Below are positions 504-57,093 of a DNA stretch of 64,000 bases, in pieces. The DNA lies in contig JAXDDX010000010.1 of NCBI GenBank assembly GCA_034670405.1, forward strand, positions 1,884,001-1,948,000. The letters are read 5' to 3'. How positions within the stretch are numbered: the first letter of the stretch is position 1; every line of letters begins with the position of its first letter. Source of the stretch: Hoplostethus atlanticus (lineage: Eukaryota; Chordata; Actinopteri; Trachichthyiformes; Trachichthyidae). A program made the position numbers and the translations under genes. Below the pieces are notes generated by a model, which was not told the origin of the DNA, searched no databases, and was given only the letters and a program-made list of their open reading frames with translations.

Positions 504-3500
504 ATGGTTTCTGCCCTAATCAAGAACATATCATCCTACATTGAAAAGATTTGCAAAGGAATGTTTACAAAGAAATTGGCGAACCCGACAAAGAAGAAAG
601 AGAGAAGCGAAAATAAAGAGCCAAAATTGACCACTGATTTGCAAGCACATAATCTAACTTTCTCTACCACGCTCAAGACCACAGTTAAAAAGATCTCCAA
701 ATGCTCTTCGGCACGTAACATCTCGCTTGAAGAAGACGACAAGAACGACTGTTCATCCCTCTCACCCACATTCAGTTATCGTGTAGCTATAGCAAACGGA
801 CTCCCCAAAAACTCTCTTCTTTTGAATAATAATGAACGTATCTTCTCAGAGGTTCTTTCAATTAATAGCAGTTTCCCTGACTCCTTGAGTGAGACCAAAC
901 CTGTCCGGAGACTGGATGAGCATAAATCACACACTATGCCAGTAAGACGTAACAGGAAGAGCCTCATTAGTTTGGCTCCTTCTGATGGTAGCTCAGAGGG
1001 TGAACGGGTGGAACGCTCCAGTCTGCACACGCTTCGGCTGGGTGCCCTACGCAAGCTAAGAAAATGGAAGAAGAGTCAGGAATGCGTCTCCTCAGACTCT
1101 GAGGTGAGCAACTGGAGGAAGACCCTGGGCATCCGGAGCAAGTCCCTGGACCGTGCCGGCCGGCAGCAGAAGAGCTCCACCCTGGAGCCTGGCTCCTCCT
1201 CCACGGGGTGCATCAGCCAGACCCAGGATGTCATGGAGATGATCTTTAAGGAGCTTCAGGGGATCAGCCAGATAGAGACAGAGCTCTCTGAGCTGCGCGG
1301 TCATGTAAATGCCCTAAAGAGCTCCATTGATGAAATATCCAGCAGTGTGGAAGTAGTTCAGAGTGAGATTGAGCAGCTTCGCTCAGGATTTGTCCAGTCC
1401 AGAAGGGAAACACGTGATATCCATGACTACATAAAACAGATTAGCCACCAGGCAAATAATTCAACCCTGAGGTTCATCAATGTTCCTGAGGAAAGGTCAG
1501 AGAAAACTGAGAGTCTTATATATAAAATACTGAAAGACAAAATGGGATTCATGGATGCACATAAAACAATTAAAATTGAGCTAGCTCATAGGTTAGGTCA
1601 ACAAAGAGAATGTTCCAATGCAAAACCTCGCCCTATTATTGTTATATTTGCAACACCCCAAGAAAGGGATTTTGTCTTAAAAAAATGCTATAAACTTAAA
1701 GGCACAGGTATTACAGTCTCCACTGATAGCTTAACCCATGATGGAAAGGAGAGAAAAGACAAAGCGATGTCTTCCTCACAGACCTATGAAAGCATGGATA
1801 TAAAGGTCTCAGGAAAGGATAAAGTAGTGGAGAGTGACGACTGGGATTCAATGGACAGTGATAAAGAGTTAGATGAATTGAGCAGAAATAAATATGCAAT
1901 GGTGATTTCAAAACCTGTTCACAAAAGCAAATCAGAAAAGAGGAGGTCCCATGACCACAGTCGGTCAGGAGATGAAGCAGGCTACTCGGGCTCAGTTCAC
2001 TATGCCGATGACACTTATGATGACCCAGACAAGCATGTGAAGGCATACTACTCAGATATGACCCCTGGTTGGCTTTCCCAGAGTGACTACTCTACCCCTA
2101 AACTCAGCCGCTCTGAGTCTGACTGCTCGAAACTCTGTCAGTCCTACTCTGAAGACTTCTCAGAGAGTCAGTACTTTACACGGGCTAATGGATGTTCCCT
2201 GCTGTCCTCCTCTGATCAGGAACTGTGGCAGAGAAAACAGGAGGACATGGCCTCATCCTGGTATGCTACCCCTAGCCACCCACTCAGCCAGGAGAACCAA
2301 CCCTATGCAGAACACAATGAGGTTGAGACCACAGAAACTATTGACAGTGGGGTGAGCAATGGACTTGTCTGCATGTCTGGGGACAGAAGCCACTACAGTG
2401 GCTCCCAGGTCTCTCTGCAAGGTGACCTCTCACCCTGGAAAGACTGGCATCATTTGGAGCAAGGTGCTGACTCTGGCCTGGAAGCCTCCATAGAGGTTAG
2501 CAGCCCCTTTGACCCATCAACCATCCCTGGTTTCCCAGAGAACATCACTAAATGCCAGGAGGTTGATTTACAATTTGAAGGGGATGAAGATTTCATGATG
2601 CTTGACAGAGACTCCGCCCTGCCACCTATAACAACCCACATCATTCCTTCTATCACGGAAAGGGAGTCTGTCATCAAAACATCTGTTCGCCAATCTAAAG
2701 AGGGATGTAAAGCGATCACTAAAGAAAGCACTAAAGTGACATCTAAAGATGCCCCTAAAGCTTCTTCTAAAGTGACACATAAAGTGGCTCCTAAAAATGA
2801 AAACTCTAAAATATCCCCTAAAGAAGGCCCTAAGGTATCTGCTAAGGTTTCACCTAAAGTGTCCTCTAAAGCAACTCCTAAAGAGTTACCTAAGGACCTT
2901 CCTAAATCAACAGCTAAAGAATCTCCTCAAATTATCCATAAAGAGAGTCCCAAACTCACACCTAAAGAGGCTACTAAGGCCCCCCCTAAAGAAGTGACTA
3001 AAGTGGCATCTAAAGTCACTTCTAAAGAGGTCACTAAAATCTCTGCTAAAGTGACCCCAAAAGATAGCCCGATATTGACTCCTAGAGAAAGTCCTAAAGA
3101 GTCACCTAAAGAGAGCCCTAAAATAACACCAATAGAGAGCCCTGTTGCAACCCCTAAAGAGTCTCCTAAAGAGCCCCCTAAAGAATCCCCTAAGGTCATT
3201 CCTAAAGACCCCCAACAAGTTGCTCCTAAAGAGGGTCCAAAAGTCGCTCCTAAAGAGGGCCCAAAAGTCACTGCTAAAGAGCTTACTAAAGAAGCTACAA
3301 AACCGACCCCAAAGGAAGCCCCTAAGGAGGTCCCTAAAGTAGCCTGTAAGGAGGCCCCTAAAGTAACCTCTAAGGAATCCCCTAAAGTGACCCCTATAGA
3401 AGCCCCTAAGGTTGCACCTAAAGAAGCTCCTAAAGTAGCCGCTAAGGAGATTCCCAAAGTGCCCCCTAAGGAGGCTCCTAAAGTGACCCCCAAGGAAGCT

Positions 3501-4587
3501 CCTAAAGGGGCCCCTAAGGAAGCCCCTAAAGCAGCTCCCAAGGAAACATTCCCTGAACTGGATATCAATCATAGCTTTCACCAGACCCAGAATAAGTCTG
3601 CAACCATGTACCGCAGTCAGAGTGAGATTCGGACAGAGAAGGTTGAGGAGGTGCCCAAGTCCTGGAGCAGCAGGCTCAGCATAGATCTCAGTGAAAAGTC
3701 TTTTGGTTTTGGTTTTGGCTCTACACTTCAAAGGGCCAAGTCAGCCCTGGAGGTTGTCTGGAAGACTGGCTCTCAGAGTACCCCTGCTCCCCCTGAGGAG
3801 CCTGCCAACTCATCTTCCTCTTTTATGGGCCGCTTCCGCACCCTGTCCACCTCCACCGCCAATGATTCCAGCACTACCATAGACTCAGATGTCTACACAG
3901 AGCCCTTCCACTGCAAAGCTGAGGATGAGAAACCAGCTGCAGCAGCAGAAGCTGGGGAACAGCCAGTGGATAATGAGACCCACTATGTTGAAGTGATGGA
4001 GCAGGTGCTAGCTAACCTGGAGAACAGAACTAATGCTAATGAGACAGAGGAGACAGACGAGCCTGTGCAGGAGTATGAGACTTCTCAGGACTATGATGTG
4101 TCTGATGACATTGATGCCTCTCAAGACTATGATGCCTCTCAGGATTTTGAGGCCTCTCAAGATTTTGAAGCCTCAGAGGACTATGAGGCAAATAAAGAGA
4201 CACACGTTCTGGAGTATGACTGCAGTTTGGATGAGCGGTATGATGAAGAGTACAACCAGGATTATGAAACTCAACTGACTGAGGATACCGCCGAATATGA
4301 TGCCATGGTGGAGTATGTGGATGTGGAAGAACCGGATGAGACAGAGGACAATGATATGACAGAGGAGATGGAAGAGGGAGATGAGGAGGTGGAGGAGATA
4401 ATGGAGGAAGCCTACGCAGTGTCTGAAACAATGAAACAACAGCAGGAGGATGAAAACAAAAATGTCCCAGAGGAGAAGTCCGCAGAGGCACCACCCAAGA
4501 AGCGTGTTCGTCCAACGTTCAAGGAGGCAGCACTGAGGGCCTACAGGAAACAGATGGCTGAGCTGGAGCAGCAGATCCTGGCAGGGG
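504..4587 (+). CDS. unc13c: unc13c exon 1: long N-terminal region of Munc13-3
   Basis: This single exon encodes residues 1-1361 plus one base. Munc13 proteins prime synaptic vesicles at active zones by opening syntaxin-1; the long N-terminus distinguishes Munc13-3 from Munc13-1, which starts with a C2A domain. The ATG at 504 is chosen because the following residues match the remembered Munc13-3 start (a hydrophobic stretch, then KGMFTKKL) and an in-frame stop lies at 393. Visible in order: a conserved Ser- and basic-rich block (1-240), coiled coil (242-312), LINE ORF1p-like globular segment (323-419), Ser/acid-rich linker, Lys/Pro repeats (about 728-1014), a conserved block around MYRSQSE, an acidic tract (about 1178-1325), and a basic amphipathic helix (about 1334-1361) with hydrophobic positions F1339, L1344, Y1347, M1351 and L1354. 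Calmodulin binding has been reported near this place in Munc13s; here it is inference. The donor G|GTATGA gives phase 1. Reading into the intron would stop at 4641. Confidence 0.95.
1227..1440 (+). other. unc13c: Predicted coiled coil in Munc13-3 N-terminus
   Basis: Residues 242-312 show heptad-like spacing of I, L and V with many E, K, Q and S and no proline, as expected for a parallel coiled coil. The segment is nearly identical to the corresponding part of mammalian UNC13C as I recall it. It directly precedes the ORF1p-like segment, the same order as in LINE-1 ORF1p. It may mediate self-association or active-zone scaffolding; that is inference. Confidence 0.75.
1470..1762 (+). other. unc13c: LINE-1 ORF1p-like (RRM plus C-terminal) segment inside Munc13-3
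   Basis: Residues 323-419 follow the layout of LINE-1 ORF1p globular domains. There is a first strand with RFINVPEE, then a helix, then [10 protein letters not shown] (compare the 'I-x-x-AHR-x-G' signature of ORF1p), then KPRPIIVIF and ERDFVLKK (compare 'RPIIVRF ... VL'), and finally a KLKG-x-G-I-x-V-S-T-D segment followed by a charged helix. The DNA here is more AT-rich than the flanking exon. The segment is in frame, uninterrupted, and present in mammalian UNC13C as I remember it, so it is not a recent insertion. Family assignment rests on pattern recognition alone. Confidence 0.55.
2686..3545 (+). repeat. unc13c: Coding minisatellite: Lys/Pro-rich tetrapeptide repeat
   Basis: About 285 residues are made of degenerate four-residue units of the type P-K-E-x or P-K-V-x, encoded by a roughly 12-bp unit such as CCTAAAGAAGCT. 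Mammalian UNC13C, as I recall it, has no such block here, so I infer a lineage-specific expansion. The region is strongly basic and probably disordered, resembling KSP or PKEx tails of neurofilament or histone H1-like proteins in composition. Because the unit is a multiple of three and lacks stops on either strand, long antisense ORFs appear over it. Confidence 0.9.
4080..4188 (+). repeat. unc13c: Coding 18-bp tandem repeat: acidic hexapeptide units
   Basis: About five or six imperfect copies of an 18-bp unit encode hexapeptides of the form S-Q-D-Y/F-D/E-A. They lie at the start of a long Asp/Glu-rich tract (about residues 1178-1325). The phase-preserving unit suggests replication slippage within a disordered acidic region. 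The acidic tract directly precedes the basic amphipathic helix at the exon end, so charge pairing between the two is possible. Confidence 0.85.
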
Positions 4588-5998
4588 GTATGACTCTTTA
4601 CTTCTTATTATCTGTCTGTCAAAGTGCCATTTTGATGTTGTAGTGATTACATGCTTCTACATATCCATCACACAGTCATAGCGTTCATGTAAATAGTAAC
4701 TAGTCAATCACCATGAATCAGAGAAATAAGCAGCTGGGATTTTTTTTAAACTTCAGTTATGTCATAATAGTAAGTCCTCAATGCTATTAAAGTGTTCCCC
4801 TGCAATCAAATCTAAAATGTCAACAAAAATATATGTTTTGCTATTACTTGCAATTGTTATTTAAAGTTCTTATCATGCTGTATGACAGTATGATAACATA
4901 GAATGTTTCACCATGTTCTTCAATATTTTGCTCATCAATATCAAAAGTATAGAAACTCACTCCAGTTCAGGTTTCAATTCTGTGGTGGAGACAAGCCCAA
5001 GACTTGGAACTTTGGTATAACATTCTGGAATATATGGGAACCTCAGACTTTGTTCCACTGGTATGGAGGATTTTTGGATTTGGTAATTGATTTTGAGGGG
5101 AATGATAAAGTGAGGAGAGGACTTTCTCTGAAGGTGGATGCCAGGGTTAACGTCTGGTTTAGACTTTGTATTCCCATAGGCTCTCTTGTAGTAGATTGGA
5201 GTTTTGGAGATAGGATTGTCAGACATGGTGTTTGGGGGTGTGTAATTTCTCATCAAAATCACTGGGGGGCACGACAGTAAGTGTGAACAATGTACATCCT
5301 TACATAGCCACATAGTACCCTGCATTTGGTGGCAATATCTGTCTGTGATGGTTGCATTTTGTCTCTTTTATAAATGTAGTTAGAAATATTTTATAATTTC
5401 TCCCAGTAGCAGAATATTGTACCATTACTCTAATCTGCATTACAGTTTTTAAAATGGCACCTGGAGTAGTTGCATTGAGTGAATCATAATACAGTGCAGA
5501 CTGGAGTTGATGGATCGAGGCTTACTCAGAGAGGTGGCTTAATAAAAATGGGAGTGTATAAGTGGTTAGGATTGATTCATTGAAGCAAAAATTAAAGTCT
5601 TTCAAGTGGAATAAAAAAAAAAAGTTTTCCATATGAGCTGTGGTGGGGCCCAGGGAATTTCCACTCTTACTTAAAATGAAAAGGCTCTTGACCTACATGT
5701 GGAGCAGCCACTATGAGCTTCTGTGTTCACAATAAGGCAGGTGCTGTAGTAAATGGAATATAGGCTATACCTGAAGGCTACGATGGATATGCGACGCATA
5801 TGTGCACAAATTGCCCACATACAGTGTGAGCAGTTTACAGTGGTCACATACACAAAACATCCTTCAGAGAACACAGGACTGTTATTTATTAAACCTCTCA
5901 GATTAGGAGAGCTACAGTATTTCTTTCTCTGTGATATCTGATATCTACCAGCCCATGCCTGCCACATATTAAAACCAATAAAATGTAGTTGACATAAA

Positions 5999-20256: not shown

Positions 20257-22568
<2,312 letters not shown>

Positions 22569-26967: not shown

Positions 26968-27210
<243 letters not shown>

Positions 27211-28329: not shown

Positions 28330-28632
<303 letters not shown>

Positions 28633-38939: not shown

Positions 38940-41129
38940 AAAGTTACCACAGCTTTGGATGTCCTGGCATAAAGAGATGTTCAGTTCAGCTCAGTTCAGT
39001 TCAGTGAGAGTCAGCAATGATCTCCATTTCTGGACAGGGAGATACCACATTAACAGTTGGTTCAATAAATATCTACATTCTAAGTGTGATGTGTCAGACA
39101 GTAAGGTAAATTGAATGTACATGTGTGTACTTTTGGGTGCAAATGAGTGTATATGGCGTATGTGGTGCCATAGGGATGAATTATATGCTTCTGGAAGATG
39201 CTGAATCATGGCTTTGAGGCCTTTTTCAGGACTGAAGCTCTGATCTTTAACGATGATGATTTGTGATCTTGAGTGATGCTGAAAGTGGGATTGGAACAGT
39301 AGCAATGATAGAATAATTCATTGATTGATTTATTCATGCATCAACATTTCTTGATAATTCAAAGAAAAGCAATATGTGCAATACGCTACTCTGCACCAAA
39401 GACCACATCGCATACACTGTCCTTCAACATTAATAAAATGAACTGAGAGAATCAAACATTACACCATATAGACTAAAGGTAAAATTCCCAAAGTGCTAGT
39501 ATGGTTATAAAAGGACTGTAGTCAGGCACATAAATATCTACAATCATCCCGGGACGTCAACGGGCCCATTGGCATCTAAAGAAATAGTGGGCCTCATTGT
39601 CCAATAAGTAAACCCCTTAGTGAGTGCCCGAACACACTGTCAGCCATGGTGGTTATTGACAGCCGTCTAAATGGCTGTAAACTATACTGATTTAATGGCC
39701 ACGTGTCAAGCGTTGACCAATATTACTTCATTTTTGTTTGCTATTTTTTAAGTGCTTATCTTGATGTCAAAAACAAATAACACATTGTCTGTTGTTTTGG
39801 AAAGTTTTCTAGGAAATATATCTTTACGTGTCCAATGTAGCAATACATGATCATATAACCTATGTAACCCACTTTTTTGGTCGAGTCGGAGTAATCAATA
39901 ATCACTACCTAGCCACTTAAACACAAAAGTGGAGCACAGAAGAGGAGGGAGAAAAGAGAGCAGGAGGAAGAAACAGCTTTTCACAGTTTTTCACAGCTGC
40001 TTTGTTAGCAGCAACATAATCACCCTAAGAGACTGATAAGTGACTGCAAGTTTCCTCTTCGTTTTGCATGTGCAATACAATGATCACTAGGCTTTATCAG
40101 CGCCAAAAAACATTAGGTATTAGGTCAAATTTAATTAACAGGGATAAATGACTATGTGCGAACAGGTGCAGTAATATTTCATAGCCTACTGGAGTCTGTC
40201 GCACCAATAGCCTCTAGGTGTTACATAACATGTGTTAGCAAGCTTGTTTGTTTTGCTATGTGTGCATCATTATCTGGTTGACCTGTCACAGTTTGAAGCC
40301 TTATTAGGTTGTACCCCTACAGCCGCTGCTGTCTGTGGTGTCGATCAGGGGTTACGTTTGTGGTATGCCAGTTGGCACAGTGTCGTCCGCTTGTCATTTT
40401 CACAGTTGTCCACGCTGTGATAGATATACCTGCTAATTTTATATGATGAATAGCATGGTAGTGTACAAGTGTTTATGTGGAGGAGGAGGGGGAGCCCAAC
40501 ACATTATGCTTGCCCCTGTCACTAAACTGTTAAGCCATGTCATGTGTTTTTGTATTTATATCCTTGTAGGAACCAGTCATCAATCATTTTCCTGGTCTTC
40601 ACATCTTAAAAGGGTTAGTTTAGGGTTAGGACCTGGGTTTAGGGTAAAGGTTAAATATAAGGAATTAATGAGGTTTACCAGGCTATTCTCCGTAGCATGT
40701 AAGCGGGAATATGAATGGAATAGTTCTATGAGTAGCCCATAAAAACAGCTTAATGGAAATATTGTCTTATTTAGAGTTAGGTTAATAGTTTATTGCAGTC
40801 CATGTAAATGTAGTCAATGTGCATGTAAAAAACGTTGTGTAGGCTATAATCGTGTCCAGTAAAAATTCCGTCGACAAGAAGACGATAATATCGGTTTCGG
40901 TAAATTTTCGGTTTATCTTCCAGCCCTACTGTGTGTTAGGGTGCACGTGTCCGTGCACGCAGTAGGCCAAAGTGTCTGTAACAGGATTAGCTGTCCTGGG
41001 TTTGTTCTGGGAGATTATGTATGTAATGATTTCAATCTCCCTGAGTAGAAAGCAGCAGCACCTTCACTGGCCTCAGAGTGGCGATGGCAATCAGAGATGA
41101 TTTTCTGGACGAGGTTCCAGTGGAATTGG

Positions 41130-47826: not shown

Positions 47827-57093
<9,267 letters not shown>

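Follow-up and report, generated by a model that had tools for sequence, protein, structure and literature searches.

Arc and other gag-derived proteins are found at synapses; they come from retroelements of the LTR type and have the fold of the Gag capsid. Among LINE elements, the known case of a domesticated ORF1p gene is L1TD1, a gene of placental mammals that is at least 106 million years old according to its published description (PMC4161310). On the side of the host proteins considered here, the N-terminus of bMunc13-2, the UNC13B product, is described in a review as binding ELKS1, which is important for synaptic recruitment (PMC5830537), and Munc13-3 is reported to be almost exclusively cerebellar in rats (PMC8762327). 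Here we analyse a stretch of 64,000 nucleotides from Hoplostethus atlanticus (positions 1884001-1948000 of contig JAXDDX010000010.1, in a genome of 633 Mb; hereafter the window) in which the large N-terminal exon of UNC13C, the gene for Munc13-3, very probably encodes an RRM-like domain descended from LINE ORF1p, placed in frame after a coiled coil also present in two other UNC13 genes. It seems that, long ago, part of a mobile element became incorporated into a protein of neurotransmitter release.

The UNC13C gene in the window

The N-terminal coding exon (504..4640, plus strand) is a single open frame of 1379 residues from an ATG at 504 to an in-frame stop; judging from the sequence, its true end probably lies before a donor-like GTATGA at 4588-4593. 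We scanned seven further exons downstream in the window against Pfam, five of which match: C1_1 at 20278-20625 (E = 3.7e-14), C2 at 27067-27210 (E = 2.5e-15) and, below the cut-off, at 28411-28578 (E = 0.002), and MUN at 49208-49408 and 54939-55076 (E = 4.5e-7 and 7e-12). A divergent N-terminal exon followed by C1, C2 and MUN domains is the arrangement of a Munc13. The paralogue is most likely UNC13C, a letter we assign because the exon resembles what we take to be human UNC13C (the presumed human sequence below), the first 600 residues of which align with the fish exon at 61% identity. Residues 1-241 have no other match in the 633-Mb genome at E<=0.1.

Several repeats are visible further along the exon. 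Lysine/proline-rich repeats of the type K-E-x-P-K occupy 2998-3545, with periods of 12, 24, 36 and 96 nt, and similar motifs can be seen in the translation from about 2740. The presumed human sequence seems to be without this stretch, and the repeats are possibly a fish expansion. A tandem repeat with an 18/36-nt unit at 4068-4189 encodes an acidic stretch. Between exons of the gene there is also a weak reverse transcriptase (RT)-like match (38950-39090, E = 0.007).

The RRM-like domain and LINE ORF1p

The domain covers residues 318-410 (1455..1733, plus strand) and is recognized by profile E values, reciprocal searches and a predicted beta-alpha-beta-beta-alpha-beta order, the LINE profile match within it extending over residues 321-409 (nt 1464-1730). 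It is preceded by a coiled coil (residues 242-295; 1227..1388) and a linker (residues 296-317; 1389..1454), both likewise on the plus strand. A first-pass annotation had read the whole segment as an ORF1p-like module of coiled coil, RRM-like and C-terminal domains (CTD), in frame and free of stops. The open frame is indeed there (residues 242-419 of the 1379-residue frame, starting at nt 1227), and the motifs that were named occur in the order given: RFINVPEE (residue 323), a ten-residue motif (356), KPRPIIVIF (374) and ERDFVLKK (387). The remark that the segment is AT-rich is also correct (GC 0.367 at 1456-1785 versus 0.469 for the whole coding sequence), but GC3 is just as low elsewhere in the exon (0.28-0.32 over residues 716-935, against 0.31 over residues 331-440), so that AT-richness is not diagnostic and was dropped as a sign of foreign origin.

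When the UNC13C segment was searched against its own genome, 13 further places matched at E<=0.001. Two of these, L004 and L007, match through the coil only; the five that we inspected (L002, L003, L005, L006 and L008) are ORF1-like frames, three of them (L002, L003 and L005) with RT or endonuclease frames downstream (Pfam RVT_1 or Exo_endo_phos); and the remaining six all recur in the list returned by the L002 ORF1 query. A query stripped of the coil found seven non-self places in the 633 Mb at E<=0.01 (best 6.3e-7), every one of which is also found by the L002 LINE ORF1p query. In the opposite direction, the ORF1 parts of L002 and L005 retrieved 52 and 108 places, including the UNC13C exon at E = 6.1e-8 and 6.2e-6, respectively. 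Judged by these searches, the relation between UNC13C and LINE ORF1p is reciprocal. Viral and prokaryote contigs scanned with the segment yielded no relative. LINE ORF1p families are diverse in this genome, and on several contigs their ORF1 frames are open and adjoin an endonuclease or RT frame; among the 15 LINE loci of our alignment (A1), such an endonuclease or RT frame was detectable beside ORF1 in 12.

Individual LINE copies share no more than about 20-33% identity with the domain. We built a profile from 27 ORF1p RRM rows of the same genome, excluding UNC13C; the rows are the frames of at least 200 residues among 47 ORF1-like frames that remained after removal of contained duplicates. 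It was run against 1323 sequences (six UNC13C pieces, four L004/L007 frames, 313 other window frames and 1000 shuffles), with E values computed for a nominal 25,000 proteins. UNC13C residues 313-440 scored 54.9 bits (E = 1.1e-14) and the whole exon 49.8 bits (E = 4.6e-13), the runner-up being a shuffle at 11.1 bits. None of the 313 other window frames or the four L004/L007 frames was listed at E<=100, and neither were the UNC13C coil, residues 1-312, the piece from residue 441 onward or the reversed segment.

This profile is partly circular in that it contained loci that UNC13C had itself found, and these were removed in two steps. Dropping the places matched by UNC13C left 21 rows, still including L035, L045 and L047, near-copies of dropped rows, and gave E = 1.5e-13 for residues 313-440 and 5.7e-12 for the whole exon; removing in addition all rows at least 55% identical to dropped ones left 17 rows and gave E = 1.1e-12 and 4.4e-11. 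Across the LINE-only profiles, UNC13C thus scored 43-55 bits, compared with 12.0 bits for the best of 1000 shuffles. The ORF1p groups of this genome, which we take to be L1/Tx1-like and CR1/L2-like, each find the domain on their own (E = 1.7e-13 for the 23 L1-like rows and 2.3e-11 for the four CR1/L2-like rows). Searched against PDB, a LINE-only alignment of 14 rows returned five matches at E<=1, all of them LINE-1 ORF1p or ORF1 protein (best 2.1e-20). The proposal of an ORF1p-type RRM in the Munc13-3 N-terminus is therefore upheld by LINE-only profiles at E values of 1.1e-14 to 1.1e-12, and we regard homology of the UNC13C domain to the LINE ORF1p RRM as being, at the level of sequence, as good as proven.

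General databases give a fainter signal. The Pfam match that the first-pass annotation had suggested looking for came out right as to family and short as to strength: Transposase_22 is the sole family to match residues 314-426, but it does so below its cut-off (E = 0.0041, 17.8 versus 22.4 bits). None of five controls (one reversed and four shuffled copies) matches Transposase_22, the reversed copy hitting another family at 0.028. When the coil is included, Transposase_22 drops to seventh place (E = 0.015), most of the families ahead of it being coiled-coil ones, and against the whole exon it reaches E = 0.12. As calibration we used seven whole LINE ORF1p of the same genome: L009 and L036 pass the cut-off, L005 and L065 match below it, and L002, L003 and L022 have no match at E<=1. 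Because five of these seven true LINE copies miss the cut-off too, the low score of UNC13C is not counter-evidence; the failure to detect L002, L003 and L022 suggests that the Pfam model under-counts the ORF1p RRMs of fish. PF02994 as a genome query found only two places, and the genome searches were therefore made with protein queries. In PDB, coil plus RRM retrieved ORF1p first (two sequences at E = 1.2e-4, among 14 listed at E<=10), and the RRM alone had LINE ORF1p as the top four of six listed, at E values of only 0.022-0.091.

Two single-sequence AlphaFold models, both of low confidence (pLDDT 52.8 and pTM 0.46 for the first, 61.1 and 0.53 for the second), agree on strand-helix-strand-strand-helix-strand, which is the RRM topology that the first-pass annotation had put forward as a check. 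Foldseek ranked LINE-1 ORF1p 1-3 among 350,542 PDB chains for the first model (E = 0.016-0.031), while for the second, where assorted alpha/beta-plait proteins came up, ORF1p was at rank 14 (E = 0.048); neither model produced an E value below 0.001, and the hits are not significant. The predicted structures are in keeping with the RRM fold class and, at this confidence, do not by themselves show kinship with ORF1p.

In a tree of 26 rows (L012, L027 and L053 of the 27 profile rows were left out), UNC13C sits on a long, unresolved branch and is flagged, along with L022 and human L1, among the long ones. Since this tree fails to place the domain, we name no donor LINE clade. A stretch of 4-6 residues before the CTD strand is absent in UNC13C, as it is in L002, L003 and L022, which is a hint, and only a hint, of donor kinship with these three.

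The coiled coil and the C-terminal domain

Over UNC13C residues 242-320, the best a/d register is 83% hydrophobic, compared with 14% elsewhere. By BLAST, the coil is 45% identical to L004 over 53 residues and 43% identical to L007 over 56, and both matches stop at residue 295, where the linker begins. The two coils, in exons at C42:1364162-1367320 (L004) and C8:1238754-1241915 (L007), are 78% identical to each other, and the L004 coil as a genome query finds only three places: L004, L007 and UNC13C. Searched with a conserved UNC13 exon from the window (22290-22514), the genome gives five places: the window gene, C42, C8, C166:676283 and C46:3079871. The C42 place follows the L004 exon at about 10 kb downstream, and the C8 place the L007 exon at about 5 kb, in both cases on the strand of the coil exon, so that L004 and L007 belong to UNC13 genes. 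They are probably a UNC13B pair, with UNC13A at C166 and C46 and UNC13C in single copy. The five UNC13-like places therefore include three with the coil and one with the RRM; at L004 and L007, neither the genome search nor the 27-row profile found an RRM.

How ORF1p-like is the coil itself? Against a profile of ORF1p coils (16 non-redundant of 26 LINE coils), the UNC13C coil scores 16.4 bits, a value reached by 101 of 1000 heptad-preserving shuffles (best 24.1), and the L004 coil 5.2 bits. The R-h-x-x-h-E motif, the trimer motif of ORF1p, is absent from the UNC13C coil, likewise from 11 of the 26 LINE coils. The first-pass annotation had made the coil part of the ORF1p module; a coil shared with other UNC13 genes at 43-45% identity, whose ORF1p-coil score falls within shuffles, argues otherwise, and with the L004 coil query matching only UNC13 genes we set an ORF1p origin of the coil aside. 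As far as these comparisons reach, the LINE RRM sits behind a native UNC13 coil and is not part of a whole ORF1p module.

The C-terminal domain fares little better. What can be recognized is a remnant (1692..1754, plus strand) made up of the first CTD strand (residues 397-408) and R417, which stands at an invariant LINE arginine. An extended profile running to the end of ORF1p (23 of the 27 rows, 157 positions) matches UNC13C at positions 4-96, and residues 405-520 have no match to it. The CTD that had been claimed thus breaks off at profile position 96 of 157; with neither a full CTD nor an ORF1p-type coil detected, the UNC13C segment is, by these measures, not a complete ORF1p.

Origin, function and known systems

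The host-gene frame is intact. At E<=0.01, two ORF1 queries hit the UNC13C exon and nothing else in the window, two endonuclease queries have no match in the window, and an RT query finds just the weak fragment mentioned above, 37 kb away. This is what we would call a domesticated sequence. In the presumed human UNC13C, 52 of 54 coil residues are identical to the fish, as are 63 of 95 over residues 318-412 (66%) and 26 of 83 over residues 438-520, and the domain matches the 21-row LINE profile at 5.6e-9. If this human sequence is right, the domain would predate the fish-tetrapod split, since human UNC13C keeps it, and would have been retained by selection; its age would then probably exceed 400 million years.

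Other histories have to be weighed against this one. The long UNC13C branch might be explained if the domain were a common cellular RRM, or a ferredoxin-like domain, with a convergent likeness to ORF1p, and the second model does match many alpha/beta-plait folds about equally well, a cellular RRM appearing at rank 50 of 50 shown, just as TIA-1 RRM1 appears at rank 9 in the list of the first. We nonetheless consider convergence very improbable in the face of LINE profile E values of 1e-12 to 1e-14, of Pfam matches that include no cellular RRM family among those shown, and of a coil-free genome search that yields only places a LINE query also finds. Nor do we give appreciable weight to a recent LINE insertion or an assembly artefact confined to this fish: ORF1p copies are common enough in the genome to supply one (the 52 and 108 places), but the frame is intact, the compared LINE copies are distant, and the presumed human sequence both retains the domain and matches the LINE profile. 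A poly-A tail and a target-site duplication were sought around the domain and not found, as expected for an old event: there is no exact direct repeat of at least 9 bases between 1380-1480 and 1700-1900, and only one run of at least six A, an A7 at 1679. Improbable too, if less extremely so, is capture of a whole ORF1p (coil, RRM and CTD) by the common ancestor of the coil-bearing UNC13 genes, followed by loss of the RRM, but not of the coil, in all of them except UNC13C. The presence of the coil in three UNC13 genes would fit, as would a coil-RRM junction that is gapless relative to several ORF1p and genome matches of the segment that extend into the coil; yet coil-to-coil scores do not rise above heptad-preserving shuffles, the L004 coil query finds no LINE, and the trimer motif is missing, for what this is worth given the many LINE coils that also go without it. 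We therefore prefer a LINE RRM joined to a UNC13 coil. The direction would have been from LINE to host, with the RRM captured on the UNC13C branch or lost in the other UNC13 genes, followed by long purifying selection; the simplest reading is a gain by UNC13C after its split from UNC13B, although loss in the others is possible.

What the domain might do is less clear-cut. It is basic (pI 9.48, net +6), within the range of 15 LINE copies (pI 8.7-10.7), and retains E330, H362, R363 and R417 of the residues invariant in these copies, whereas N319 and L360 stand at columns with R in 15 of 15. The invariant arginine aligned with R417 presumably lies in the region of R261/R262 of human ORF1p. Opposite human R206, R210 and R211, in an alignment numbered with the N of NLR as N157, UNC13C has Q, S and N. 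These three arginines are described as required for RNA binding by human ORF1p (PMC9839780), but they are not general features of this genome's LINEs either, which makes their absence weaker evidence. For R261 and R262 of human ORF1p, a part in binding nucleic acid is reported (PMC9410894, PMC6501352), and high-affinity binding, a property of the trimer only, also uses this pair in the C-terminal half (PMC9410894). A human R261A mutant is nevertheless reported to take RNA into condensates (PMC10202459), so that other parts of ORF1p can bind RNA too.

Could UNC13C, then, still bind single-stranded RNA in the manner of ORF1p, its coil and RRM forming multivalent RNA-binding oligomers at presynaptic sites? 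The charge, the retained residues, R417 in particular, the behaviour of R261A and a coil-then-RRM order that copies ORF1p all point that way; we remain doubtful in view of the replaced R206, R210 and R211, the loss of LINE-invariant arginines at 319 and 360, and a CTD most of which was not found. The first-pass suggestion of RNA binding or Arc-like assembly finds no support here, with these two invariant arginines gone. General searches of Pfam and PDB with the segment turned up no capsid family. Unlikelier again is the fuller proposition that Munc13-3 carries a working retrotransposon-derived nucleic-acid-binding domain on an oligomeric coil, and that RNA or ORF1p-type condensation helps to organise release sites, for example in the cerebellum. 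We favour over RNA binding, while placing the chances of being right and wrong about level, a protein-interaction module on the UNC13-shared coil, with a putative partner. The domain would no longer work as an ORF1p RNA chaperone, a role we disfavour because the CTD is missing and two LINE-invariant arginines have been lost. As a compact interaction module carried by the UNC13 coil, it might help to position Munc13-3 at the active zone, thereby contributing to isoform-specific release properties. Does a domain of ~100 residues affect the position of Munc13-3, vesicle priming or RNA binding? This is the question that the locus raises.

Set beside LINE ORF1p (human LINE-1 ORF1p, PDB 2w7a, 2yko and 2ldy; PF02994), the UNC13C segment has the N-terminal strand, the E, HR and P-R-x-I motifs and the first CTD strand, and its RRM follows a coiled coil. 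It differs in having no recognizable CTD beyond that strand, in having a coil of UNC13 origin, in the loss of two LINE-invariant arginines and in being part of a large synaptic protein. With Arc it has in common that a retroelement-derived protein is found at synapses, but the derived part of Arc is a Gag capsid fold and that of UNC13C a LINE RRM. With bMunc13-2 it has the coil in common, if L004 and L007 are UNC13B as we suppose, whereas no RRM match was found there.

A full-text literature search returned no description of an ORF1p-derived domain in UNC13C or Munc13-3, though papers elsewhere may describe one, and the main text of the L1TD1 paper does not mention UNC13 (PMC4161310). Relative to the literature searched, with L1TD1 as the known domesticated ORF1p gene, a lone LINE RRM in UNC13C may be new. 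Like UNC13C, L1TD1 is described as a host gene with a LINE ORF1p RRM in its coding sequence; but whereas UNC13C has a lone RRM within a larger gene, nearly all of L1TD1 derives from ORF1p, coil, RRM and CTD included (PMC4161310). If our reading is true, the lone LINE RRM of a synaptic gene would be a second case beside L1TD1, structurally different from it and probably much older.
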